Positions 5,721 to 25,441 of a stretch of 25,441 bases of DNA are shown here, piece by piece. Position 1 is the stretch's first letter; each line of letters opens with the position of its first letter. Under the pieces are notes generated by a model, which did no database searches, was not told the origin of the DNA, and was given only the letters and a program-made list of their open reading frames with translations. The translations under genes were made by a program, and so were the position numbers. This DNA is from a virus: IMG/VR virus record IMGVR_UViG_3300017772_000110, positions 1 through 25,441 of that record. The stretch is one strand, 5' to 3'.

Positions 5721-7184
5721 ATGAGTTTTGCAACTGGCGGGTCTTTTCCTGCTTCTATAGTTCCAATGCCAAATCAAGTAGCTGTACAAGATAATTATAT
5801 CGATTTTCAGAAGGCTGGTTTTTCGCAATGGACACAACAATATCTACCTGAGCTTTACGAAGCAGAAGTAGAAAGATACGGAAACCGAACTATTGGTGGT
5901 TTCTTGAGAATGGTTGGCGCTGAAATGCCAATGACATCTGATCAAGTTATTTGGTCTGAACAAAATAGATTACACGTAGCTTATGACACTGTTCAAGTAG
6001 CTGCAGTTGCTGCTAATCAAGTAACTGTTACTATCACACCTCAAGGTGCTGAGGCTTCTTCTGGTGTTAGAATTGGTAATACAATTTTAATATCTGACAA
6101 TGCTACTGGACTTGTAACTACTAAAGCTCTTGTGATTGGTATTAATGCCACAGGCTTTGTATTAACTTGTGAGTTATATGATGCTGCTCCTTCTGGAATT
6201 ATTACAGGTGCTGCTTCAAACAGCTTGTTTGTATACGGTTCTGAGTTTCCAAAAGGAACAAATGGAATGGGTGGAGCTATTGAACCAGGTGTAACTACTT
6301 ACAAAAATTCTCCAATTATCCTAAAAGATAACTATGAATTAAGTGGTTCTGATGTTGCTCAAATTGGTTGGATCGAAGTTGCTACTGAAGATGGTCAGTC
6401 TGGATACTTATGGTATTTAAAAGCTGAATCTGAAACTAGGCTAAGATTTGAAGACTATATGGAAATGTCAATGGTTGAAGGTGAGAAAATGAATGGAACA
6501 GTTCCTTTTGGGGGTAATTTTCTACCAACTGGTGGTACTCCAACTCAAAATATCAAAGGTACTGAAGGTTTATTTGCTGCTATCGAAGCAAGAGGTAATG
6601 TATACTCTGGTTTTGCTGGAGCTGCTGCTCCTGGCGCTGGTGCTTTAGGTGATTTCGATGAAATCCTTAAAAACCTAGACAAGCAAGGTGCTATTGAAGA
6701 AAACATGTTATTCTTATCTAGAGCTACTGCTCTTGATTTCGACGATATGATTGCTGCTGTTAATGGTGGATTTGCTTCTACTCAAGCTGCTTCTTTCGGA
6801 TTATTTGAGAATGATGGTGACATGGCATTAAACTTTGGATTTTCAGGTTTTAGAAGAGGTTCTTATGACTTCTACAAAACTGATTGGAAATATCTAAACG
6901 ATGCTACAACTAGAGGTTTATCTAATGAGATTGATGGTGTAATGGTTCCTGCTGGAACAACTACAGTTTACGATCAAATGTTAGGATCAAACATCAGACG
7001 TCCTTTCTTACACGTAAGATATAGAGCTTCTGAGTCTGAAGATAGAAAGATGAAATCTTGGATCACTGGATCTGTAGGTGGAGCTTACACTTCTGATCTT
7101 GACGTTATGAGAGTTAATTTCTTATCTGAAAGATGTTTAGTAACTCAAGCTGCTAATAACTTCGTGTTATTCAAAGGAGCTTAA
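5721..7184 (+). CDS. Major capsid protein, HK97-type fold (crAss-like)
   Basis: This is the probable main shell protein. Its 487 residues match the roughly 490-aa capsid proteins of crAss-like phages, and it follows the scaffold gene. The N-terminal arm and following helix (residues about 28-70) contain FQKAGFSQWTQQYLPELYEAE. Residues about 85-170 are a Thr/Val/Ala-rich beta segment (VTVTITPQGAE, then GNTILISDNATG), which I read as an insertion domain on the HK97 core. The core continues with YGSEFPKGTNGMGG, then ILKDNYELSGSDVAQIGW, GYLWYLKAESETRLRFEDY, and late IRRPFLHVRYRASESEDRKM. GCT, GGT and other T-ending codons dominate, consistent with high expression in an AT-rich host. The start follows an A-rich leader (AAAAACAAAATAAA). 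The family call is from memory of motifs and gene order. Confidence 0.88.
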   Translation: MSFATGGSFPASIVPMPNQVAVQDNYIDFQKAGFSQWTQQYLPELYEAEVERYGNRTIGGFLRMVGAEMPMTSDQVIWSEQNRLHVAYDTVQVAAVAANQVTVTITPQGAEASSGVRIGNTILISDNATGLVTTKALVIGINATGFVLTCELYDAAPSGIITGAASNSLFVYGSEFPKGTNGMGGAIEPGVTTYKNSPIILKDNYELSGSDVAQIGWIEVATEDGQSGYLWYLKAESETRLRFEDYMEMSMVEGEKMNGTVPFGGNFLPTGGTPTQNIKGTEGLFAAIEARGNVYSGFAGAAAPGAGALGDFDEILKNLDKQGAIEENMLFLSRATALDFDDMIAAVNGGFASTQAASFGLFENDGDMALNFGFSGFRRGSYDFYKTDWKYLNDATTRGLSNEIDGVMVPAGTTTVYDQMLGSNIRRPFLHVRYRASESEDRKMKSWITGSVGGAYTSDLDVMRVNFLSERCLVTQAANNFVLFKGA

Positions 7185-10436: not shown

Positions 10437-13400
10437 ATGGCAGAGGCTAAAAATAATTTTTTACAATCTAAAATGAACAAGGATCTAGACGCTAGACTTG
10501 TTCCCAATGGTCAATATAGAGATGCTCAAAATATTGTAATAAGCAGATCAGAAGGTGATAGCGTAGGTACAGTTCAAAATGTTTTAGGTAATACCGAGTT
10601 AACAAGTTTTGGTTTAACTGACAAACACTTAGAAGTTGTAGGCTATTACGTAGATGAATTAAATGATAGTATATACTTTTTTATAACAAACTATACTGAT
10701 TCATCAGAAGATGGTTTAAGTAATTTCGCATACTCAAGTTCAAAGCATTATATATGTAGTTATAATTCAACAACGAATACTTCTAATATATTAGTGCAAG
10801 GATATTTTCTAAACTTTTCTAAAACTAGTAACATAACTGGGGTTGACATGATAGAAAACGTATTGTTTTTTACTGATAATAGAAACCAGCCTAGAAGAAT
10901 AGATGTAAAAACAGCTAGTTCAAATTCAAGTTATTATAATTCGGAAGACAATATATCAGTTTTAAAATATTATCCATATACTCCAATATCTTTAATAAAA
11001 GAAGAAGTAACTTCTATATCTATAACTGCAGCTGGTAGTGGCTATGGCAGTTTAATACTCCCTTTTGAAGTTCCAGTAAACCAAATGCAAGGCGGTACTG
11101 GAGAAGGTTTAATTGTGACTATAACCTCTGTTAGTTCAGTAACTGGAGGTATAACTGGTATTACAGTAACAAATCCAGGCGTTGGCTATACTAATGGGGA
11201 CGTTGTAACTGTATACCCAAGAGTGGGTGATGGTACTATAACTTTAACAGTTGCAGAATCTTCTACAATGAAAAACAAAACCAATCAATATTTACCACCT
11301 AAAGCTACATCAGGTAGTAATTTGAACCCACATTACGATGTTAATTGGCCAGGTGATAAAGATTACTTAAGGGAAAGATTTGTTAGATTTAGCTATAGAT
11401 TTAGATTTGAAGATGGTGAGTATTCACTAATAGCTCCCTTTACTCAAGCTGCTTTTGTTCCTGAAAATGATGGTTATTTCTTAAGTGAAACCTTTAATCC
11501 TAGAACAGGTGTTTCAATAAGTTTAGATTCAGACGAGCAATATGCTTACACTAGTACTACTAATAGAATAATGCGAAACAACATAAACGAAGTTGGATTA
11601 ATAATCAATTGTCCATCAACTTCATCTTCTTGGGCTAGTTCTGTTTTGGATTTAAAAATAAAAGAAGTAGAATTATTGATAAAAGAATCTGATCAAGCGT
11701 CTATAAAGGTTCTAGATGTCATAGAAAGTAGTGATCTATCTAATGTTAGCATAGACAAGCTTCAATACGATTATCAATCAAGAAAACCAATAAGAACGCT
11801 TCCTGAAAAAGATTATACTAGAGTTTTTGATAAAGCGCCTGTTAGAGCTTTTAGTCTTTCCTGCTCTGGAAATAGAGTTATATACTCTAATTATTACGAC
11901 AAGCATACTAGTCCAGAGACATTAAGTTATAACGTAAACACTGTTGACAAAAACAATTCTCAGTCTATAGAATATCAAAACCACACCTTAAAACAAAATA
12001 GAACGTACCAAGTAGGTATAGTTTTAGCAGATAGGTATGGTAGACAATCAGATGTAATATTATCTGAAGTTGATGACGGAGTTGTACCTGGCTTGGTAGA
12101 CACTTTTAGTGGTTCTACAGTGTACAACAATTATAGAACACCAAGTGATAATAACTTGAATACATCTACTACATCTTGGAATGGTGAAGGTTTAGAAATA
12201 TTATGGAAAAAAGCGATTCCTTCTGTTGTTAATAGCCCAGGTTATCCTGGTTTATACGATTTAACAAATCCACTAGGTTGGTATAGTTGGAAAGTGGTAA
12301 TAAAACAACAAGAACAAGATTATTACAATGTTTACTTGCCTTCTATATTAAATGCCTATCCAAATAATGCTGATAAAGAACTAAATAAGACAGCTCATAT
12401 ATCCTTGTTTTCTGACAATATAAACAAAATTCCTAAAGACTTAACAGACGTTGGCCCTGAAGCTAAGGAATTTAGAAGTTCTGTTAATTTGTTTGGTAGA
12501 GTTACCAACATCAACTTTAATACGAGCCCTGTAACTAATGGTAATGTTCAGTTTTATCCAACACCTACACCTGACTTTGTTAATACTATTGGAACACAAA
12601 AAGATTTAAATATAGGAGCTTCTTCGGTTATCTCTCAAAAAAGTGCAACAGCAGTAGCTAGCGGTGATAATACAGATACTTTAATTGCTGAAGGAAATTT
12701 TAGATCTGATTCTATTATTGGACAAAGAGTTAGTGTTACAGCTAATGACGGAACTGTTATATTTAACAATAGACAATTAACATATTATGTTGCTAAAGCT
12801 GGAATTAATGGTTCTCAAGATGCTGTGATCAAGTTTAGTCCACCGTATACTAACAACACGGGTGGTTCTATAACCCTTGATCAAGTATCTTTAAATTCAT
12901 CTCCTTTTTACAATGCTGAAAACAATCCATTAATAGGTAGAATATCAACAACACCTTCAGGATTCAATACTTCTCCATCTCCAAATATAGGTGAACCAGT
13001 TGACTTTAATGATAGTTCATCTTCGACTGATGACTCTTATTTTCCTATCAATCTAGCTGTTTACGAAACTAAACCAATTTTTTCTAATTTAGAAATATTT
13101 TGGGAAACGCCTACTTCAGGTTTAGTAAGCGTTTTAAATACTGATATAACAACGGGAGATAGCGATACGCCTTATGGGTACTCTGATCCATCAATAGCTT
13201 GGTTTGAAAATGAGGGTGTTTCATCTTTTGTGACTAATAACATATATCCTACTGATTTTGCCGGAAATAATATAGTAAGTCCAGATGCTTCTTTTGAACT
13301 AAACTCTGTTGTTATAAATCCTGGAAATACGACCGTAAACAACCTGTTTGAACTGTTTAATAATGGTAATGGTAGTTTTGTTATAAAAACAAAAAACAAT

Positions 13401-14036
13401 CCAGGCGTTGAAGATGTTTACTATGGTCAAGACGAGGCTTTAGGATTTAATCAATATACTTTTACGGTTACTTGTATCGTAAACTACAGGACAATAACAG
13501 CTAGTTTTACCGGTGGCTTGTCTAATATAGTTCCTAGCTGGACTTATAACACTATACCAACAACAACTTTTAGCTGGGGTGATCTCGCTAATGTCAACAA
13601 CAGTGGTCCTATGCAAGGTGATATGTATTACTTAGGTAGTTTATTGACATATGGCAACCTAAGAACTAATATTGAATTTACCGGTAACACCAATGGTAAT
13701 CCTACTAATGGTTCTGTTATTAGTCCAAATAATTCTAATCAAACTAGAGAGCTTTCTATAAGTAATTTAACAGCTACATTTGTCTCAGGTGATCAACAGA
13801 ATTTTAATGGAGTTATACAGCCTGGTCCAGCGAGAATAGATAATGGGACTACTAATGGAGATTTAGATCCAAACGATAATTCAATAACTGGATTAGGTGT
13901 ATATATACACTATAGCTCTTTAGGAGCACCACAGGGTGGTGGTGGTTCAACCGCTAAGTATGATATTAATTTTAAATTATACGATGGAGGTGGTCTTTTC
14001 ACAGAGTATACCGTTAGAGCTGAGTTAGCTAATTAA
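10437..14036 (+). CDS. Large tail 'muzzle/stabilization'-type protein
   Basis: A 1199-aa tail protein. The N-terminal block KMNKDLDARLVPNGQYRDAQ (residues 13-32), followed by SEGDSVGTVQNVLGN, is a hallmark of the long protein annotated as 'stabilization' or muzzle protein in crAss-like and marine podoviruses. Further family-like blocks are ENVLFFTDNRNQPRRIDVKT, RERFVRFSYRFRFEDGEYSL, RTYQVGIVLADRYGRQSDVI and NLEIFWETPTSGLVSVLN. Residues about 192-277 are a Gly/Thr/Val-rich beta repeat that interrupts the conserved sequence. Residues from about 930 to the end are Asn/Ser/Thr/Gly-rich and look like variable Ig-like beta domains. It probably forms the distal nozzle of the short tail. The next gene, 9 bases on, resembles the rest of the same protein in relatives. 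Confidence 0.75.
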   Translation: MAEAKNNFLQSKMNKDLDARLVPNGQYRDAQNIVISRSEGDSVGTVQNVLGNTELTSFGLTDKHLEVVGYYVDELNDSIYFFITNYTDSSEDGLSNFAYSSSKHYICSYNSTTNTSNILVQGYFLNFSKTSNITGVDMIENVLFFTDNRNQPRRIDVKTASSNSSYYNSEDNISVLKYYPYTPISLIKEEVTSISITAAGSGYGSLILPFEVPVNQMQGGTGEGLIVTITSVSSVTGGITGITVTNPGVGYTNGDVVTVYPRVGDGTITLTVAESSTMKNKTNQYLPPKATSGSNLNPHYDVNWPGDKDYLRERFVRFSYRFRFEDGEYSLIAPFTQAAFVPENDGYFLSETFNPRTGVSISLDSDEQYAYTSTTNRIMRNNINEVGLIINCPSTSSSWASSVLDLKIKEVELLIKESDQASIKVLDVIESSDLSNVSIDKLQYDYQSRKPIRTLPEKDYTRVFDKAPVRAFSLSCSGNRVIYSNYYDKHTSPETLSYNVNTVDKNNSQSIEYQNHTLKQNRTYQVGIVLADRYGRQSDVILSEVDDGVVPGLVDTFSGSTVYNNYRTPSDNNLNTSTTSWNGEGLEILWKKAIPSVVNSPGYPGLYDLTNPLGWYSWKVVIKQQEQDYYNVYLPSILNAYPNNADKELNKTAHISLFSDNINKIPKDLTDVGPEAKEFRSSVNLFGRVTNINFNTSPVTNGNVQFYPTPTPDFVNTIGTQKDLNIGASSVISQKSATAVASGDNTDTLIAEGNFRSDSIIGQRVSVTANDGTVIFNNRQLTYYVAKAGINGSQDAVIKFSPPYTNNTGGSITLDQVSLNSSPFYNAENNPLIGRISTTPSGFNTSPSPNIGEPVDFNDSSSSTDDSYFPINLAVYETKPIFSNLEIFWETPTSGLVSVLNTDITTGDSDTPYGYSDPSIAWFENEGVSSFVTNNIYPTDFAGNNIVSPDASFELNSVVINPGNTTVNNLFELFNNGNGSFVIKTKNNPGVEDVYYGQDEALGFNQYTFTVTCIVNYRTITASFTGGLSNIVPSWTYNTIPTTTFSWGDLANVNNSGPMQGDMYYLGSLLTYGNLRTNIEFTGNTNGNPTNGSVISPNNSNQTRELSISNLTATFVSGDQQNFNGVIQPGPARIDNGTTNGDLDPNDNSITGLGVYIHYSSLGAPQGGGGSTAKYDINFKLYDGGGLFTEYTVRAELAN

Positions 14037-14045
14037 TAAAAATAT

Positions 14046-15734
14046 ATGTCAACTATAACAAAAATATCTTACTACAACACTTTTTGGAATAAAAAAGTAG
14101 TAACTCAAGGCCCTGCTTCAGCGCCGGGATTAGTTTCGTATTGGCCTGGATTACCGTGGAACCCAGCTGGATACCCAACGTATCCTAACGATATGACTAT
14201 AGTAGCTAGCGATTATGAAAGGAACTGGATGATAGAAGAATCTAGAATAGTAGGAGGATATAATAACACCACTACAGATCTAGGTGTTAGAGCTTATATA
14301 AATGAAGAGACAATAGATCAAAGACATAGATTTAATAGCTTAATATATTCTGGAGTCTACAATGCTAACACAGGTGTTAATAGCACTAATGTGTTTAGTG
14401 TTTCTGAAAATATCAGCAAATCAATAGATCCTTCTTATGGCGAAATAAAAAGAACAGTATCTTACGACACAAATTTAATAATTTTACAAGAAAGCAAAGT
14501 AAGTCAAAGTTTAATTGACAAGGACACAATATACACTTCTGAAGATGGCACGGCAACAAGTCCTCCTGGAACAGTATTAGGTCAAACAATACCTTATGTT
14601 GGAGAGTTTGGAATTGGCAATAATCCTGAAAGTTTTGCTGACTTTGGAATGAGAAAGTATTTTGCAGATCCTTATAGAGGATCTATTTTAAGACTTTCTA
14701 GAGATGGTTTAACAGAAATATCTCAAAATGGTATGACAGATTATTTTAGAGATGAACTTGAAAAATTATCTAATGGAGTTAAATCTTATGTGGTTGAAAA
14801 CACTACTAACACCACTGGAACCGTCAACGCTATAGTTCCTATAAGTGATCCTAAGGATATAGAAATAGGTATGAACATAGAAATAAATAATCTTCAAACT
14901 AATTCTTTTGTCACTGATGTGTCTTATGTTTCGCCTTTCAGTATAACTCTTTCAAGTAACATAACTTTAACTGGAGTTAGTGATTTAAGATTTGTAACAA
15001 GAGTTAAAGACAAAATAGTAGGAGGTTGGGATATATATGATAGACAATATAGTTTGTCTATGCAAAAGAAACCCCAAAGTCCTAATGAAGAAATGGCTTA
15101 TCAAACATTGTCTTTTGATGAATCTGTTAAAGGTTGGACTAGTTTATATACTTACAACCCATCAAACTCTTTTAGTTTAAAAAACTCTTATTATACAACT
15201 TTTAATGGTGGTTTATGGAAACATTATGATGAAAGTGTGATTAATAATAGAGGGACTTTTTACAATACTCATAATAGCTCTTTTGTTGATTTTATATTTA
15301 ACACTTCTCCATCTGCTAAAAAAGTTTTTCAAACAGTGAATTATGAAGGAGATAATGGGTATCAAGTTAATTATTTTAAGTCAGACTTGCAGCAGACAGA
15401 TCCTGATGTTCCACTAGCTTCGCCTTCAACTTACTTAACTAGCAATAGTTACCAAGATACTTCGGTTCAAGTTTATAGTTATGATCAAGGATTGTATACT
15501 GATACTATAACTGGACAACCTAAAAGAGCTGGTTTTAGTAGAAAAGAAAATTTATACGTGGCAAATTTAATAAATAATAGTTTAGCTAGACCTAATGAAA
15601 TTATATTTGGTAATTTTATGAGTGGTATAAAAGGTTACTTTGCTAGAGTGAAAATATCAACAGATAACTATACTGACGTCGGAGGTTTAAAAGAAATATG
15701 GTCTGTAGGTAGTAAATTTGTTCAATCATCTTAA
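14046..15734 (+). CDS. Tail protein resembling the C-terminal part of muzzle proteins
   Basis: A 562-aa protein 9 bases after the 1199-aa tail gene. Recognisable blocks include NWMIEESRIVGGYNNTTTDL (residues about 59-78), HRFNSLIYSGVYNANTGVN, DTNLIILQESKVSQSLIDKD, YRGSILRLSRDGLTEISQNG and, at the end, GNFMSGIKGYFARVKIST. In relatives I recall, these blocks occur downstream of the 'NKDLDARLVPNGQYRDA' portion, in the same long protein or in the neighbouring gene. They are therefore probably parts of one tail machine. The sequence is beta-rich throughout, with no transmembrane helix or enzyme motif. The ATG at 14046 follows the A-rich leader TAATAAAAATAT. The tail role is well supported by context; the split-gene view is inference. 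Confidence 0.7.
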   Translation: MSTITKISYYNTFWNKKVVTQGPASAPGLVSYWPGLPWNPAGYPTYPNDMTIVASDYERNWMIEESRIVGGYNNTTTDLGVRAYINEETIDQRHRFNSLIYSGVYNANTGVNSTNVFSVSENISKSIDPSYGEIKRTVSYDTNLIILQESKVSQSLIDKDTIYTSEDGTATSPPGTVLGQTIPYVGEFGIGNNPESFADFGMRKYFADPYRGSILRLSRDGLTEISQNGMTDYFRDELEKLSNGVKSYVVENTTNTTGTVNAIVPISDPKDIEIGMNIEINNLQTNSFVTDVSYVSPFSITLSSNITLTGVSDLRFVTRVKDKIVGGWDIYDRQYSLSMQKKPQSPNEEMAYQTLSFDESVKGWTSLYTYNPSNSFSLKNSYYTTFNGGLWKHYDESVINNRGTFYNTHNSSFVDFIFNTSPSAKKVFQTVNYEGDNGYQVNYFKSDLQQTDPDVPLASPSTYLTSNSYQDTSVQVYSYDQGLYTDTITGQPKRAGFSRKENLYVANLINNSLARPNEIIFGNFMSGIKGYFARVKISTDNYTDVGGLKEIWSVGSKFVQSS

Positions 15735-15744
15735 AAATAAAAAC

Positions 15745-16440
15745 ATGTTATTAGAAATATTTCAAACAATTATAATAGAACCTGCTCAAGGTGTTATACC
15801 TGCTTTAATGATTGCTGGTGTAGCAATGCAAGGTGTAAACGCTGCTTTTGCTATGGGATCTGCAAATGCTATGAATTCAAATATAGAATCATTAAATGAC
15901 GACATAACAAACTTAGCTAATGCTAGACAAGAAATACCAGATTTTAGTGAAAGTATTAAAGATTTATCAGGAGGATTAAAAAATCCATATGCTAGTTTAG
16001 GCGTCGCTACAGGAGCTGCTAAAATACAAATGGAGCAAACAGATATAGCTTTAGCAAATACACTAGATGCCATGCAAGCTGGAGGTATGGGCGCTGGTGG
16101 AGCCACTGCTTTAGCACAAGCTGCTTCTAGAAGTAAGCAAAATGTAGCAGCTAATATAGAACAGCAGGAAGCTTCTAATGAAAAATTAAGAGCTCAAGGA
16201 GAACAACAACTACAGCAACAAGTTATGGCTGAAAAAGTAAGAGTACAGCAAGGTCAATTAGCCGCGGATCAATTCGCTTTTAATGCTATTGAAGAAAGAG
16301 AGAAAACAGATCTAGATAGAGCTCAAGCACTTCATGATAATGCTTTAGCTCAGCAAATGGAATATAAGAGTGCTGGTTTACAGGCTATGGGAGCTTTCAC
16401 TGGAAGCATGGTAGAATTAGGCGCAACGTTAGGTGATTAA
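15745..16440 (+). CDS. Probable internal virion (cargo/DNA-transfer) protein
   Basis: A 231-aa protein starting at ATG 15745 (MLLEIFQTII). An upstream in-frame TTG at 15718 would overlap the previous gene and is unlikely. Residues 4-35 are strongly apolar, with a helix such as GVIPALMIAGVAMQGVNAAF that could span or insert into a membrane. The rest is alanine-rich, low-aromatic helical sequence, including GGMGAGGATALAQAASRSKQ and a Gln/Glu/Ala coiled coil to the end. This architecture is typical of small ejected proteins of podoviruses (T7 gp14 or P22 gp7/gp16 class). Position just before two larger candidate internal proteins fits. The exact homology is not shown. Confidence 0.68.
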   Translation: MLLEIFQTIIIEPAQGVIPALMIAGVAMQGVNAAFAMGSANAMNSNIESLNDDITNLANARQEIPDFSESIKDLSGGLKNPYASLGVATGAAKIQMEQTDIALANTLDAMQAGGMGAGGATALAQAASRSKQNVAANIEQQEASNEKLRAQGEQQLQQQVMAEKVRVQQGQLAADQFAFNAIEEREKTDLDRAQALHDNALAQQMEYKSAGLQAMGAFTGSMVELGATLGD

Positions 16441-18397: not shown

Positions 18398-21300
18398 ATG
18401 ATTGAAGAAGTACTTAGTGAAAATACCCCAACTGAAGAAATAGTTGAGAAAGTGGATGTTAATTCAGAAGAAAAAACAGAAGAAGATATTGTTGAAAAAG
18501 AACCTGTAAAATATAAGTATAAAGGTTCTTACTTTCTTCTTGATGGTACAAAAGAACGTCCTGGAATAAAACAAGCTGCAGATGTAGATGGATTAAGTAT
18601 AGATGAATATTTAAAAAGACACAAAGATATTTATAAAATAAATCCTATAGAATACACTGATACTAAAATATCTTTTGAAGATTTTAAATTAAAAAGTGAA
18701 GAAAAAATAGTACCTGAACTAAATTCTTTATATCCTGGATTTGTTTTTAAGCAAGTTGAGCCGGGTAGTGATAGCTTTACTGTTGTAAATAAAGAGACTG
18801 GAACAAATGAAACTATAAAGCTAGGAACTATATATAATACCAAGAGCAGAAGAAGCAGTGGAGATGTTAGTATACCTACTGGCGAGGAAGGTAACTTGAT
18901 AGATAAAGATGCTTTAAATGAAAGTAAAAAAGCATATAATAGCTTTATTAATTTTATAAACGACAACCCTGAATCTAGCAAAGAATCTAGTTTGATATAT
19001 GAAGCTACTGGTGAAACTGGATTAGACGGCGCTGAATCAATAAAGATTGGTGAGTATTTCGGTATTAAACCTAAAAAAGGATCTAAACCAGAGGGTGTTT
19101 TTGAAGGTCCTAGTTTTAAAAATACCAATAAAAACCAAGCTGTAGATTTAATTGAAGAGTTAAACGTTCTACAAAAAGAAGCTTTTAGAAACCCTTGGAA
19201 GTATGGTATTGGTAGAGAAGACACTCCAGGTAAAGAAAAATTCACTTTAACTGAAGAAAGTCACAAGTTGATTAAAGAAAAATTAATTGACGAATTAAGA
19301 ACTAATACTGAGATAGGTATATATGAAAGCTCTTTTAACAATTTGTATAATAATTTAAAAGATAAGAACAAAACTCTAATAGAGCAACAGTATGACGCAG
19401 ATAGAGCGCTTAATCTTTCAGATATTGAAATAGACAAAGAACTTAAAAAAAATACTATAGAGTCTTTTAATTCTAAGTTAACAACACAACAGTTGAAAAA
19501 CCAAGAGTTGAGTATTGAGCAAGGTGAAATATCTAGTGATATAAACATACTAAACAATAAAATTACACAAGCCGAAAATAAGCCATTAACACCAGAGTTT
19601 AATAAAGAAGCAAAATACAACGAGGTTGAAGCTTTAAAGGCTCAATTATTTAATAAACAAGCCACTTATAAAATACTACAAACCCAAAGAGTTGAAAACG
19701 CTACAACAACAGTAAGAAAAAGAGGTCTTTTAGGTGTTGAAGATTTTGGAGCGCAAGAAATAAAAACTACATCTGGTGAATTAGTAAAAAACTTTTTCAA
19801 CGATAGAGGTTTTTCCGAAGCCAGTATGAAAAAACTAGCTGATATAGCTGATAATGCTGAAGTTAGTGTTAAAAGTTCAATAGAATCTATTAAAGAGACA
19901 AATCCTTTGCTCACTCAGCGAGAGGCTATTGGAGAGATATTTAACAAAGAAATAATAAATCTTCAAACGTTGCGTAAAGAAGGTAGTGAGTCTAAGATAA
20001 AATTAAAAATATCTCAAGAATCCAAAAACATAGAATTATTTCCAGGTTTTAATACTTATAAAAAATTAAGAGAAAACGGTTATTTTCCTGATAAAAATGG
20101 TGAAGTAGAAATATCTTTATTAAAATTAAGAGAAATAGGCGTTGACTCTAGAAATTTTGAAGGTTTTATTGATGAAGCTTTAGACATGGCTAGTAAGCAA
20201 GATATTGAAGCTATTAAAATATATAACGAAGAGTATGATGAAGTAGAAGCATTATCTAATGCTTATTGGAGTATGTATGCTGGAAATGTAGACATATCAG
20301 CTATAGAAAAAGATGGTTTCTTAAAAACTCTTGCAACCTATACTTTTGTAAGTACTTTAGAAAAAGCTGGATACAATGACAAAGAAGCTAAAGACATCGT
20401 GTACTCAAAAGGAATGTCACCTCAAGACAGGATAGCAGCTATAAATTCAGCTATATTAACTAGTGCTTATCAAGTGAAATCATTATCAGGCGTTGAAATA
20501 GAACTAACACCAGAACAAAAAGAAGCTGTTAAAGTCTCTGTAAGTAATCAAGTAGCTCAAGGTATTGGTAGTTTTATTCCAGAAATGCCTTTGCTAATGG
20601 GTGGTGGACAAGCTTTAAATGCTTTAGGTTGGAAAAAGTATTACAATGGCTTAAAAGGTATTAAGAAGTTTGTAATGGGTGCTGTCGTTGAGGATGTTCA
20701 AATGCAAATAGCTTTAGATGCTGACATTGGTACTGGTGCTTCTTTTTATGGTATTGGTGCTCTTGGAAGAACAACGATAAAATGGGGTGAAAAATTCAGA
20801 GCTGCTCAGCCTGTATTTCAAAAGGTAATAGCAGCTGGGCCACTAGGTGCTGTGTCTTCAGAAACAGCTGGCTTTGTTGATGCTATAGCAAAGAGTGTAA
20901 TAGGTGAAAAGAATTTTTCAACTTCAATGAAAGAGCTTTACGGAGACTTAGACGCTGTTGAAGAAAGAATCTTAGTTAACACAGGTACTTTTTCTGGCTT
21001 TGGAATGATGGGGTTAAAAGGTAACGATGTTATTTCTACAAATAGAAAAATAAAACTAAGAGATAAGCTTAATAAAAGAATAGAAGACGTTAGAAGAGGA
21101 CCGACTAGAATAGTAAATGAAAAAGAACTTCCCGGAGTGTTAAGAGATTTAAAAGATCTTAGCCCTAAAGAAAAACAAAAAGTAGAAAACTTAACTTCTG
21201 GTGTTAGTGAGTTGCAGAATTTAATAAATTATGAAATAGCATATAAAGAGCTAACTCCTCCATCTAGTTTTAAATTTGAAAGTACAGATCCTGAAGTTAT

Positions 21301-24300
21301 AAAAGAATATAACAAAGAAGTTGAGGTTTTTAAAAGCAATCTTACAAAAAGATATGTAGATCCCTGGGTTAAAGGTATACAGAAGTTTAGTCCAGATTTT
21401 AAAGGTGTAAATCTTGTGGTTGGTAGAGGAGATAGATTTAGAAAAAATAATTTTAGAAATAAGAAATCTACTGCAGAGTTTGATCCTAACACAAATACCA
21501 TAACTATAGATATGGATCTTTACACAGCTGGAAAAGAAATACATGAGTTAACACACTTAGCCTCTAGAGAGTACTTTAAAAAACATCCAGCTGCATTAGA
21601 GAATTTAGCTAATGATTTAGGTGCTAAATTTAAAGATTATAAATTTGGAGAGTTTAATGGCAAAGAATTAGAACAGAGGATCGTAGATAAGTATAAAATA
21701 AACATAAACACTCCAGAAGGTAAAAAACTACTAGCAGAAGAGTATTTATCTTTTATGGGCGAATACTTAGGTAATCCAGAAGCATACTACACTAACCCTG
21801 CTTTAGCATCTAGTCTTTTAAACGAGGTTAAGTTAGAAATAAAAGATATATTAATTCAAAATGGAATAAAAAGTCCAGTTCCTAAAACAGCTAAAGATGT
21901 AGTTCAACTAATTGGACAAATAGGCATTAAAGGTGCTAGAGGTCAAAAAGGAGCAGAAACTTTAGTATCTGAACTACTAGGCTGGATTCCAAAAGAAAAT
22001 GCTAAAGAAACAGAGGTAGATATAGATAATTTAAGCATTGTAGAGGCTAACAAAAAAGCTGATAAAGCTAATGAAGATTATAAGTTTAGTGAAGCTAAAA
22101 AATCAATGGCTTCTTTTGATTTATCAAGAAAAACTACTGACGAAATTGTAGCTGAAAACGAAAAGATTGAAAAAGGAATTTTTGAAAGAGCAATAGATAA
22201 TCCAGGAAAAAGCTTAAAAGAATTAGTTACAAACGAAGATAGATTTAATCTATACATGAATAATCAAGCTAAAAAGTATGATTTAGTAAAAAGCTACGAA
22301 AGAAGAACCGGTATGGATCTTAAAGAAAAGTACGGAGAAGTATCTTATGAGGGTATTGTTGATTATTTAGATAAACAACTATATGAATATACTGGTAGAT
22401 GGGATCCTTCAGAAGGTGGAGGTAGTTTTGGTAAGTATATAAACCAACCTAGAGGTTTTAGTAGCCAGCTGATTAACGCTTTTGAAAAAGGAGGGAAAAT
22501 AATGGTAAAAAACTCTGAAGGTAAGTTAGAGTTTGTGCCAGATAGATTAGGTGGTGAAGCAGGTGAACTAGCTATGGTTAATTTAACAGAACCCACTTCT
22601 TCAAGCCTTAAGCAGAGTGGAATATTAGGAGATGTAGAAGCTGGTCTAATAGATAATAAAGGAGAGATAGTTCCAACTAGGTTATATAAAAATGTTGAAA
22701 AATCTTCTAAAGAACTAGAAAATGCAATTACAGAATTAGACCTTACTAAAGAAGGTATTGAAAGTTATAAAACTACTTTAGATAAGTCTAACATTGCTGC
22801 AGAGTTTGGGGTTGGTGAAAAGAAAATAAACAATGAAGATGGTAGTTTTAAAGGTAAAACCTCTACAAGGTTATCAGGTAAGGAAGTTACATCTGCTCAA
22901 GAATATATAAAGAAAAATGCTAAAACTTTATATGATATTTTGCCTAAAAACATAACTGATAAAGGTGCTAGTGAAAAAATTAGAGGGACTTCTACTGGTA
23001 TTCAACCAAATTTATTAAATGCTTTTTATGAGCAAAAAGGTAGAATTAATAACAAACAAGGTAATGTTGAGCAAACTAAACTACCTTTTGACGAAGCTAA
23101 ATTTTTAGAATATTTTGGTATAAAAGATGGTGTTTTTGAAACTTTAAAAGATAACGGTAAGATTGATCAAAGAATAAAATCTATTATACACCAACAAGGC
23201 AAAGCCATAACTAACTATGAAATAAGAAGAGTAAAAGAATTAACAGCTAATCAAATAGAAGATTTAAAATCTGGTAAGTCTGAAAACTTAGCTTCTATGA
23301 GTTTAAACGATGTAGATTTTTTAGAAGAAGTAGTTGAAAAATTAAATTCAGGAGAAAAATTAACACCAAAAGATATTAAAGCTTTAGCTGCTGAAAGAAA
23401 CGCTAGTGACTTTATTACTAAATTATCTCTTACTACTACTGATGAACAAAAGAAAGCTGTAGTTAGTCATTTACAAGAATTTGTAGTTGATCCAAAAATA
23501 AAAATTGAAAGAGAAAAACAAGCTAGGCGAGAGGATATGACTCTTGAAGAGATAGAAAAAGAAGAAGAGCTAAACATATCTAGATGGAGCAAAGCGTTAC
23601 CTGGTTTAAGAAAACTATCTGGCTTTAAAGATTTGCAACCAATAACTCCTGGTACTAGAAGTAAAAACGTAACTAGTGCAGAAAATAGAGATAGAACTAT
23701 AAAAAGTTTTAATAAAATTCTTAAAAAGTTTCCTGCATTATTAGAAAATGATAATTTTTCAAAGTATGTAAGAAACACTTTTGGAGAAGGTTCATTGAAA
23801 ACTTTTGGTCTTAAAAAATATAAGGGAAAAAAAGGTGATGCTGAATACTTTAGCATAGCTGAATTTAAAGATGTATTTGGTAAAGTTAAAAGCAAAGGTG
23901 AAAGACTAGATTTTATGGATGATGTCTTCATGGTAAACTATAGCGAAACAGGTTTTAAGAAGAAATGGGAAAAAGAAATTGAGGCTGCTAAGGTTAGGTT
24001 TCCTCTTTGGGAGTCTTCTCAAGGAGAGCAGTATAAAAGTTATTTAACTTCTTTTGGTAGAGACGCATTAAGCAACCCTAAGTTAGTAGATGCTAATGGT
24101 AAATTATTACCTGACGCTTATGAAAGAACTATGGATGCTAATAGAGAAGCTATAAAGTATACTTACGAAAAACTATCAGAAGCTTATAAAGAAAGTCCTA
24201 CAAAAGAAACTTTAGAAGATATAATAACTTTTCTTCAAATACAAACAGGTCAAGCCACAGGTATAATTAAAGGCCTTGCGCCTATGGAGTATCTATCTTT

Positions 24301-25441
24301 AGTTGGAGAAGCCACAAGACCTGGAGGTAAAAGATTCCATAATGAACACAATAAAGACTTATTTATATATAATACAGAATTTGTTAATTTGCTTTTAAAA
24401 TCTAAAAATGAAATTGGAAGTGAAAAGTTTATAAAAGAATTAAAAAATATTACTAATAGTGTTTCGCAATCTTTAACTTCTGATGCTGACAGAGCAGTAA
24501 AGGATGATCCTAAATACGGGGGAACTGGTGGTTCAATAGATCCTATAGTTAATGATGTATTATTAACTTCTACCTTAAACCCAGGTCAAGGCTCAAGAAC
24601 TTTATCTTTACGTGATTTCCAAATTGATAAGGTAACTACAGTTGCTGATTTACTATTAAAAGAATACGGTAAGAAAGAAGCTGAAAATATTCTTACAAAA
24701 TTTCCACCAAGTAAAGCAAAAGTAGAAGTAGAACAACAAATAGAATATCCTAGAACAAAAGTAGTTAAAAATAACGTGGAAGTTCTTAAAGAAGCTTCTA
24801 TGTCTAGTAAAGACTTAAATCAGACCCAGGTTATAAATACATTAAAAACTAGAGACAAAGCTATATCTAATGCTAGAATTAGAAACAAGACAGTGAAAAA
24901 AGCTAGAGTATTTGACTTTGATGATACAGTTGCTAGAACAAATAGTAAAGTTTTTGCTGAAAAAAATGGTGAAAGAAAAGTTTTAACAGCTGAAGAATTT
25001 GCTAAGCAAGGTAAAGAGTTAGTTGATGCTGGTTGGAAAATGGATTTTTCCGACTTCAATAGAGTTGTTGAAGGTGAAAAAGGACCTTTGTTTGAACTGA
25101 TGAAAAAGATGAAAGAATCATCAGGCGATAGAGACATGTTTATATTAACTGCTAGAGCTCCTGAATCTGCTCCAGCTATTAAAGAGTTTTTAGATGCTAT
25201 GGGTATTGAAATACCTTTAGAAAACATAACTGGATTAGGTAATTCTACAGGCGAAGCTAAAGCTGATTGGCTAGTTGACAAAGCAGCTGAAGGTTATAAT
25301 GATTTCTTTTTTGCAGATGATGCACCACAAAATGTTAAAGCAGTTCAAGAAGGCATGTCTCGTCTTGATGTTAAATCTAAAACTCAATTAGTTAAAGCTT
25401 CTAAAGATTTAAAAATAGACTCTGAAAGAGATAAGAAAAAA
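18398..25441 (+). CDS. Giant multidomain polyvalent virion protein (3'-partial)
   Basis: One frame runs from ATG 18398 to the right edge with no stop codon (read through by hand, 2348 codons), so the true protein is longer. Order of visible parts: acidic leader (residues 1-55); helical, coiled-coil-prone region (about 300-480); Gly/Ala-rich apolar region (about 718-830) with GIGSFIPEMPLLMGGG; zincin-like HELTH (1049-1053) with a candidate third ligand in AEEYLS (Glu 1114/1115); a segment resembling sigma-70 region 2 (about 1312-1360, WDPSEGGGSFGKYI); long Lys/Glu-rich stretches; and a HAD-type domain (about 2170-2325) with DFDDT (2173-2177), LTAR, a Lys after GEA and FFADDAP. Such mixtures are typical of phage polyvalent proteins, thought to be packaged and injected. 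The start is 9 bases after the previous stop. The role is inferred. Confidence 0.85.
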   Translation, partial: MIEEVLSENTPTEEIVEKVDVNSEEKTEEDIVEKEPVKYKYKGSYFLLDGTKERPGIKQAADVDGLSIDEYLKRHKDIYKINPIEYTDTKISFEDFKLKSEEKIVPELNSLYPGFVFKQVEPGSDSFTVVNKETGTNETIKLGTIYNTKSRRSSGDVSIPTGEEGNLIDKDALNESKKAYNSFINFINDNPESSKESSLIYEATGETGLDGAESIKIGEYFGIKPKKGSKPEGVFEGPSFKNTNKNQAVDLIEELNVLQKEAFRNPWKYGIGREDTPGKEKFTLTEESHKLIKEKLIDELRTNTEIGIYESSFNNLYNNLKDKNKTLIEQQYDADRALNLSDIEIDKELKKNTIESFNSKLTTQQLKNQELSIEQGEISSDINILNNKITQAENKPLTPEFNKEAKYNEVEALKAQLFNKQATYKILQTQRVENATTTVRKRGLLGVEDFGAQEIKTTSGELVKNFFNDRGFSEASMKKLADIADNAEVSVKSSIESIKETNPLLTQREAIGEIFNKEIINLQTLRKEGSESKIKLKISQESKNIELFPGFNTYKKLRENGYFPDKNGEVEISLLKLREIGVDSRNFEGFIDEALDMASKQDIEAIKIYNEEYDEVEALSNAYWSMYAGNVDISAIEKDGFLKTLATYTFVSTLEKAGYNDKEAKDIVYSKGMSPQDRIAAINSAILTSAYQVKSLSGVEIELTPEQKEAVKVSVSNQVAQGIGSFIPEMPLLMGGGQALNALGWKKYYNGLKGIKKFVMGAVVEDVQMQIALDADIGTGASFYGIGALGRTTIKWGEKFRAAQPVFQKVIAAGPLGAVSSETAGFVDAIAKSVIGEKNFSTSMKELYGDLDAVEERILVNTGTFSGFGMMGLKGNDVISTNRKIKLRDKLNKRIEDVRRGPTRIVNEKELPGVLRDLKDLSPKEKQKVENLTSGVSELQNLINYEIAYKELTPPSSFKFESTDPEVIKEYNKEVEVFKSNLTKRYVDPWVKGIQKFSPDFKGVNLVVGRGDRFRKNNFRNKKSTAEFDPNTNTITIDMDLYTAGKEIHELTHLASREYFKKHPAALENLANDLGAKFKDYKFGEFNGKELEQRIVDKYKININTPEGKKLLAEEYLSFMGEYLGNPEAYYTNPALASSLLNEVKLEIKDILIQNGIKSPVPKTAKDVVQLIGQIGIKGARGQKGAETLVSELLGWIPKENAKETEVDIDNLSIVEANKKADKANEDYKFSEAKKSMASFDLSRKTTDEIVAENEKIEKGIFERAIDNPGKSLKELVTNEDRFNLYMNNQAKKYDLVKSYERRTGMDLKEKYGEVSYEGIVDYLDKQLYEYTGRWDPSEGGGSFGKYINQPRGFSSQLINAFEKGGKIMVKNSEGKLEFVPDRLGGEAGELAMVNLTEPTSSSLKQSGILGDVEAGLIDNKGEIVPTRLYKNVEKSSKELENAITELDLTKEGIESYKTTLDKSNIAAEFGVGEKKINNEDGSFKGKTSTRLSGKEVTSAQEYIKKNAKTLYDILPKNITDKGASEKIRGTSTGIQPNLLNAFYEQKGRINNKQGNVEQTKLPFDEAKFLEYFGIKDGVFETLKDNGKIDQRIKSIIHQQGKAITNYEIRRVKELTANQIEDLKSGKSENLASMSLNDVDFLEEVVEKLNSGEKLTPKDIKALAAERNASDFITKLSLTTTDEQKKAVVSHLQEFVVDPKIKIEREKQARREDMTLEEIEKEEELNISRWSKALPGLRKLSGFKDLQPITPGTRSKNVTSAENRDRTIKSFNKILKKFPALLENDNFSKYVRNTFGEGSLKTFGLKKYKGKKGDAEYFSIAEFKDVFGKVKSKGERLDFMDDVFMVNYSETGFKKKWEKEIEAAKVRFPLWESSQGEQYKSYLTSFGRDALSNPKLVDANGKLLPDAYERTMDANREAIKYTYEKLSEAYKESPTKETLEDIITFLQIQTGQATGIIKGLAPMEYLSLVGEATRPGGKRFHNEHNKDLFIYNTEFVNLLLKSKNEIGSEKFIKELKNITNSVSQSLTSDADRAVKDDPKYGGTGGSIDPIVNDVLLTSTLNPGQGSRTLSLRDFQIDKVTTVADLLLKEYGKKEAENILTKFPPSKAKVEVEQQIEYPRTKVVKNNVEVLKEASMSSKDLNQTQVINTLKTRDKAISNARIRNKTVKKARVFDFDDTVARTNSKVFAEKNGERKVLTAEEFAKQGKELVDAGWKMDFSDFNRVVEGEKGPLFELMKKMKESSGDRDMFILTARAPESAPAIKEFLDAMGIEIPLENITGLGNSTGEAKADWLVDKAAEGYNDFFFADDAPQNVKAVQEGMSRLDVKSKTQLVKASKDLKIDSERDKKK

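Follow-up and report, generated by a model that had tools for sequence, protein, structure and literature searches.

The window, by which we mean the whole stretch of DNA analysed, is the sequence of an IMG/VR record of 25441 bases and contains a head–tail module with all of its genes on one strand, in the order terminase large subunit, portal, structural proteins, a phrog_14478 protein, P0004, P0003, P0002 and a giant gene. One virion structural protein (5721..7184, +) is, by its position, the probable major capsid protein; homologues of this capsid-type protein were found only in Flavobacterium, Cellulophaga and Maribacter podoviruses and in one environmental phage, and its relatives are phages of the Pervagoviridae/Pachyviridae/Elemovirus type. 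P0004 (14046..15734, +) is a muzzle/tail protein comprising a crAss_MUZ_C domain and part of phrog_14478. The latter is split in the window over two adjacent ORFs of 1199 and 562 aa (10437-15734), and is likewise two ORFs in the related contig L004; its counterpart in phi38:1 is a single 1324-aa protein. The shared arrangement in L004 suggests, at the sequence level, a gene fission and not an error. A crAss-like phage was considered and rejected, the C-terminal domain of the muzzle protein (crAss_MUZ_C) being the sole match; we do not place the virus in Crassvirales, because its nearest capsid relatives are the non-crass Flavobacterium, Cellulophaga and Maribacter phages and the giant has no RNA polymerase match.

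Matching gene order was found in phi38:1 (Pervagoviridae), phi19:3 (Pachyviridae), Elemovirus, Panino and MW202828, and the giant gene is the last in the head–tail module common to Pervagoviridae, Pachyviridae and Elemovirus. In Gundel_1 the same gene pair precedes the giant, but terminase and portal lie downstream of it. A DNA-level search of phage records with the window returned no match. The segment 3' of the giant in L004 (L004:19289-26821) carries, on the opposite strand, ribonucleotide reductase-like, MazG-like, thymidylate synthase, primase-helicase and DUF3799 nuclease genes.

The giant gene, P0001 (18398..25441, +), starts with ATG, is open at the contig end on its 3' side and supplies the N-terminal 2348 aa of what is probably a giant ejection/polyvalent protein. 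At the base composition of the window, the chance of 2348 stop-free codons is ~10^-89, GC by codon position is 44/33/16%, and both start and frame are kept in L002 (75% amino acid identity) and L003 (58%). Since homologues have the same start, frame and length, 18398-25441 is a gene, and the uninterrupted frame of 2348 codons, still open at the right edge, that the preliminary description had reported is confirmed. Complete relatives measure 2995 aa (L002 and L004), 3123 aa (L005) and 3143 aa (L053). Because the last residues in the window, KASKDLKIDSERDKKK (25391..25441, +), are identical in L053 and are followed there by 824 more, the expected length of P0001 is ~3170 aa. These residues begin an insert located after the HAD domain described below. 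In L053 (L053:6313-15741) the insert, of ~140 residues, lies between the HAD domain and a C-terminal core and is flanked by a repeated HAD-end sequence (DVKSKTQ...DVKSNTQ), which suggests from the sequence that it arose by duplication; at its right edge the window seems to run into this insert as well. A tblastn search of phage records with the giant gave only a single 7%, HAD-sized match.

Residues 965-1130 (21290..21787, +) form a zincin-like metallopeptidase domain, in which the zincin motif HELTH (residues 1049-1053; 21542-21556, +) is followed 62 residues downstream by Glu1115 (21740-21742, +), the candidate third ligand; motif and Glu are kept in close relatives. Across 19 giants, with a mean column identity of only 18%, the H, E and H of the motif and the Glu 62 residues on are invariant, and an HExxH pattern occurs in 95 of the 101 complete giants (a pattern count only). 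The AlphaFold model (pLDDT ~70-88) consists of a helix, a small sheet, the HEXXH helix and then further helices, the helix/small-sheet/HEXXH-helix layout being that described for polyvalent MPTases (PMC5512222). In Foldseek searches with this model PprI/IrrE, jannalysin and selecase ranked high, yet with E>0.1. The domain thus has the features of the gluzincin type, namely HEXXH, a downstream Glu on the following helix and a small beta sheet before it, with weak PDB fold E-values, and the model supports a gluzincin-like fold and a predicted peptidase. The zincin-like part read earlier from the motif is accordingly sustained by the invariant HEXXH and Glu and by the model.

Towards the end of the available sequence, residues 2165-2325 (24890..25372, +) carry the motifs of a HAD-superfamily phosphatase: motif I DFDDT (as FDFDDT at ~2171), motif II TAR, motif III K and motif IV DD. 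The region matches phrog_415 (polynucleotide kinase) with E=5e-6, its D-x-D, TAR, K and DD do not vary among the same 19 giants at 18% identity, and one relative gave a PF11019 match. Foldseek placed e(P4)/class C acid phosphatases first (probability 0.97-1.00; none with E<0.001). The HAD alignment, run as a profile against the PDB, gave nothing at E<=0.01, so it is PHROG, motifs and fold that carry the call. With DxD, T, K and DD motifs set in a Rossmann-like fold, a predicted HAD phosphatase domain is supported, and the earlier HAD-like reading stands on the phrog_415, motif and Foldseek evidence. The domain was found in 98 of the 101 complete giants, a share biased upward by the HAD peptides among our search patterns; Gundel_1 gp74 and two MAG contigs are the three without the domain. 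In six of the 101 (L080, L097, L128, L129, L130 and L134; coordinates L080:1927-12762, L097:2215-12459 and L128:4630-12375) a P-loop lies 35-38 residues past HAD motif I, and in the three scanned singly (L080, L128 and L134) it belongs to a Pfam AAA_33/zeta-toxin-like kinase (E down to 2.8e-15). An alignment of four giants shows the HAD picking up again after the inserted kinase, which points to a nested kinase–phosphatase pair within a virion giant. Such kinase–HAD giants are reminiscent of polynucleotide kinase-phosphatase, whereas the window copy has no kinase.

Between the two domains, the stretch GIVDYLDKQLYEYTGRWDPSEGGGSFGKYIN (22364..22456, +) had been read as sigma region 2, a reading that we abandon. 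No sigma factor was matched in this region in Pfam or PHROG, nor in PDB sequence or fold searches; predicted confidence at the stretch is ~30, and related giants do not have the motif conserved at this place. The nominal PDB profile match, 1xmx (E=0.0012, from a 4-row alignment), is not a sigma factor. The stretch falls inside a cassette of 1.2 kb (residues ~1220-1629; 22056..23283, +) that is 93.0% identical in DNA to L005, a relative only 66-75% identical elsewhere, while in L002, 88.8% identical to the window on both flanks, most of the cassette is represented by a diverged allele. Such a pattern of identity clearly signals that sequence has been exchanged inside the gene. An assembly chimera is the less likely explanation, given that the cassette matches L005 at 93% and not at 100%, preserves the reading frame and stands in place of a homologous allele. 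In L006 (L006:13687-13840) the giant frame is broken just past the zincin domain, near the position at which the cassette starts in the window.

The remainder of P0001 is less readily classified. The N-terminal region (residues 1-650; 18398..20347, +) is conserved in the closest relatives only and had no profile match in Pfam, PHROG or PDB. An apolar Gly/Ala-rich region (residues ~740-880; 20615..21037, +) noted previously is indeed a conserved stretch, but it does not amount to a transmembrane helix on the Kyte-Doolittle scale: none was found in P0001, no 19-residue window exceeding a mean of 1.2. Conservation in the family is highest in the C-terminal ~650 aa, a part absent from the window and examined in relatives, with a model made from L002 (mean pLDDT 73). 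This model matches viral proteins annotated as PolyVal ADP-ribosyltransferase, as large polyvalent protein associated domain and as internal virion protein D, and has a weak structural match to an Elemovirus structural protein. The parts before the core fall, in the 101 complete giants, into 63 groups at <35% shared identity, and recognised domains are rare there, with GH108 in one giant, the inserted kinases and a HAD-like DUF2608 in one. The GH108 peptidoglycan hydrolase domain is N-terminal (L021:4424-15283, residues 17-132, E=1.9e-6) and fits a protein that crosses the cell wall. In cultured relatives the variable part gave DUF3293 (Elemovirus) and weak GNAT matches (Gundel_1). The C-terminal half of phi19:3 gp129 (L031:28376-33988) resembles an ADP-ribosyltransferase-annotated protein of Pseudoalteromonas phage Y3 (26.5%, E=6e-68) and also a Pelagibacter phage structural protein. 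With at least 553 matched stretches, giants of this family occur commonly among marine viral contigs.

The two genes preceding the giant encode candidate partners. P0003 (15718..16440, +; 240 aa, with the likely true start, judged from relatives, at the ATG at 15745) has an apolar N-terminal segment and is the first ejection-protein candidate; its homologues are phi38:1/phi40:1 gp99 and phi18:3 gp120 (E 1e-32 to 1e-39) as well as elemo gp20 and Gundel gp72, and its best PDB profile match is an N4 gp52-like ejection protein (8vxq, E=0.0074). P0002 (16463..18388, +; 641 aa), the second candidate, occupies the position of phi40:1 gp100; it had no detectable homologue in cultured phages, homologues being confined to close marine relatives. 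A small apolar, a medium and a giant protein (240, 641 and >2348 aa) thus follow one another. In phi40:1, gp99, gp100 and gp101, and in phi18:3, gp120, gp121 and gp123, are annotated as structural from experimental MS/MS of particles, so that positional counterparts of the giant are present in virions of cultured relatives; for these counterparts, the absence from particles that the preliminary description had named as refuting its reading was not observed. The giant itself is homologous, over a C-terminal stretch, to Gundel_1 gp74, an annotated structural protein (E=1.9e-11 with the A5 profile, 3e-44 after iteration), and gp74 has an N-terminal part in common with phi38:1 gp101. A direct sequence match between P0001 and phi40:1 gp101 was not found, and the link between them is therefore made by position and through the Gundel_1 gp74 chain. 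Together, the MS/MS-detected trios, the P0003 and gp74 homologies and the C-terminal model uphold the placing, in the preliminary description, of a polyvalent protein beside two internal-protein candidates.

Comparison with cultured phages brings out both the common position and the variable content. Gundel_1 gp74 (Tenacibaculum phage, Pachyviridae) follows the same gene pair and, like the giant, has an HExxH and the homologous C-terminal stretch; it differs in being 2482 aa long and in having weak GNAT acetyltransferase matches instead of a HAD. The phi38:1/phi40:1 gp101 (Pervagoviridae) and phi18:3 gp123 (Pachyviridae) proteins occupy the same position after the same pair, but phi38:1 gp101, of 1691 aa, is shorter and has neither an HExxH nor a HAD motif, and these proteins gave no direct match in sequence to the giant of the window. 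Elemovirus gp18 resembles the giant in position, giant size (3694 aa) and HExxH, and differs as a DUF3293 structural protein with no HAD motif. Further afield, P0003–P0002–giant is analogous to T7 gp14–gp15–gp16 and N4 gp52–gp51–gp50. N4 (Schitoviridae) is the closest architectural parallel, having three ejection proteins, of which the giant gp50 (~3500 aa) has an HExxH domain and the partners are of 644 and 150 aa (PMC12633501); gp50, however, is a virion RNA polymerase, whereas the window giant has a HAD phosphatase and no RNA polymerase was detected in it. Zincin-like MPTases are the commonest domain of polyvalent proteins (PMC5512222, Iyer et al. 2017), and the giant is likewise a multi-enzyme phage protein with such a domain: it unites two domains of disparate activity (zincin and HAD, by signatures and folds) and is phage-encoded within a virion module (TerL, portal, capsid, muzzle). 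The main text of PMC5512222 does not name a HAD phosphatase among polyvalent domains, and against the proteins described there the window family shows a conserved C-terminal core with lineage-specific cargo.

We think it probable that three ejection (internal virion) proteins are encoded here one after another, with P0001 as the third and the largest, and that the virus is an uncultured marine podovirus of flavobacteria, a relative of Pervagoviridae, Pachyviridae and Elemovirus. This reading draws on the match in position and order after the muzzle gene to the MS/MS-detected trios of phi40:1 and phi18:3, the homology of P0003 to gp99/gp120 and its N4 gp52-like PDB match, the homology of the giant's C-terminus to Gundel_1 gp74 with a model matching polyvalent and internal virion proteins, the invariant zincin and HAD residues with fold-level matches, and N4 gp50 as an HExxH giant with two smaller ejection partners (PMC12633501). 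Counted against it were the lack of direct gp101 homology, P0002 having no cultured-phage homologue, a C-terminal core seen in relatives and PDB Foldseek E-values >0.001 for both models. The giant is of a known kind, that of polyvalent ejection proteins, but the marine branch in which it falls is large and variable and has hardly been described; the protein is most likely carried in the particle and ejected with the DNA, and host takeover before phage transcription may reasonably be inferred by analogy with its protein class. The three proteins would be packed in the head, with P0003 and P0002 presumably exiting first to form a conduit through the envelope, through which the giant would be threaded unfolded; crAss001 is a model for the ejection of unfolded cargo (PMC10172136). 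The conserved helical C-terminal part may anchor the giant in particle or conduit. Inside the host, the target of the zincin domain may be the giant's own polypeptide or a protein of the host, and the HAD domain may be a phosphomonoesterase that acts on nucleotides or on the ends of nucleic acids, with the remainder of the N-terminal two thirds serving as exchangeable cargo.

The same position and partners could also suit a giant that is mainly a structural ejectosome or scaffold component, such as a T7 gp16-like inner-membrane motor or internal core, its zincin serving self-processing or assembly, its HAD being structural or regulatory, and neither having a host-directed effector role. The C-terminal ~650 aa, as the most conserved part and one matching internal virion protein D, would fit this, as would the HExxH domain of N4 gp50, which lies in an ejected protein packaged unprocessed and in a region needed for encapsidation (PMC5512222, PMC12633501). 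We nonetheless consider it unlikely, in view of the invariance of the catalytic residues of both domains in so variable a family and of an N-terminal two thirds that diversifies and swaps cassettes as effectors do.

Far less probable is a virion RNA polymerase, N4 vRNAP-like or crAss-like, or a sigma-bearing transcription starter that redirects host RNA polymerase at once. The operon layout and protein size do resemble N4 gp52-51-50, and crassviruses package an RNA polymerase and have a muzzle protein (PMC10172136), as P0004 with its crAss_MUZ_C recalls; but over almost its whole length the giant had no PDB profile match and no RNA polymerase or sigma match among Pfam, PHROG and PDB profiles, no DxDGD motif occurs in the window or its marine relatives, and the sigma stretch is modelled with low confidence and unconserved. 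The RNA polymerase reading is disfavoured by the lack of a profile match, no N4-type RNA polymerase domain having been found. A tail-tip, fibre or tape-measure protein outside the head, which the adjoining tail genes and the length and variability of the protein might bring to mind, we regard as the most improbable of these, as the gene order is that of podoviruses with their own muzzle protein, the counterpart trios were detected by MS/MS, P0003 resembles an N4-type ejection protein and the enzymes are of intracellular type.

If P0001 is indeed ejected, it would be tempting, albeit speculative, to see in the marine branch a delivery system with a conserved C-terminal carrier, a near-constant injected HAD that sometimes (6/101) has a kinase in cap position, and a freely exchanged effector cassette beside a protease; the particle-borne kinase–phosphatase might then counter nuclease defences of the host by healing or resetting the ends of nucleic acids or nucleotides. 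Phage proteins delivered with the DNA decide how an infection runs in its first minutes and how the phage fares against the defences of its host, and most of them lack annotation. The giant family has cultured relatives, and its conserved carrier part is separate from its variable enzymes; were ejection confirmed, injected phage enzymes would become directly testable in laboratory flavobacteria.
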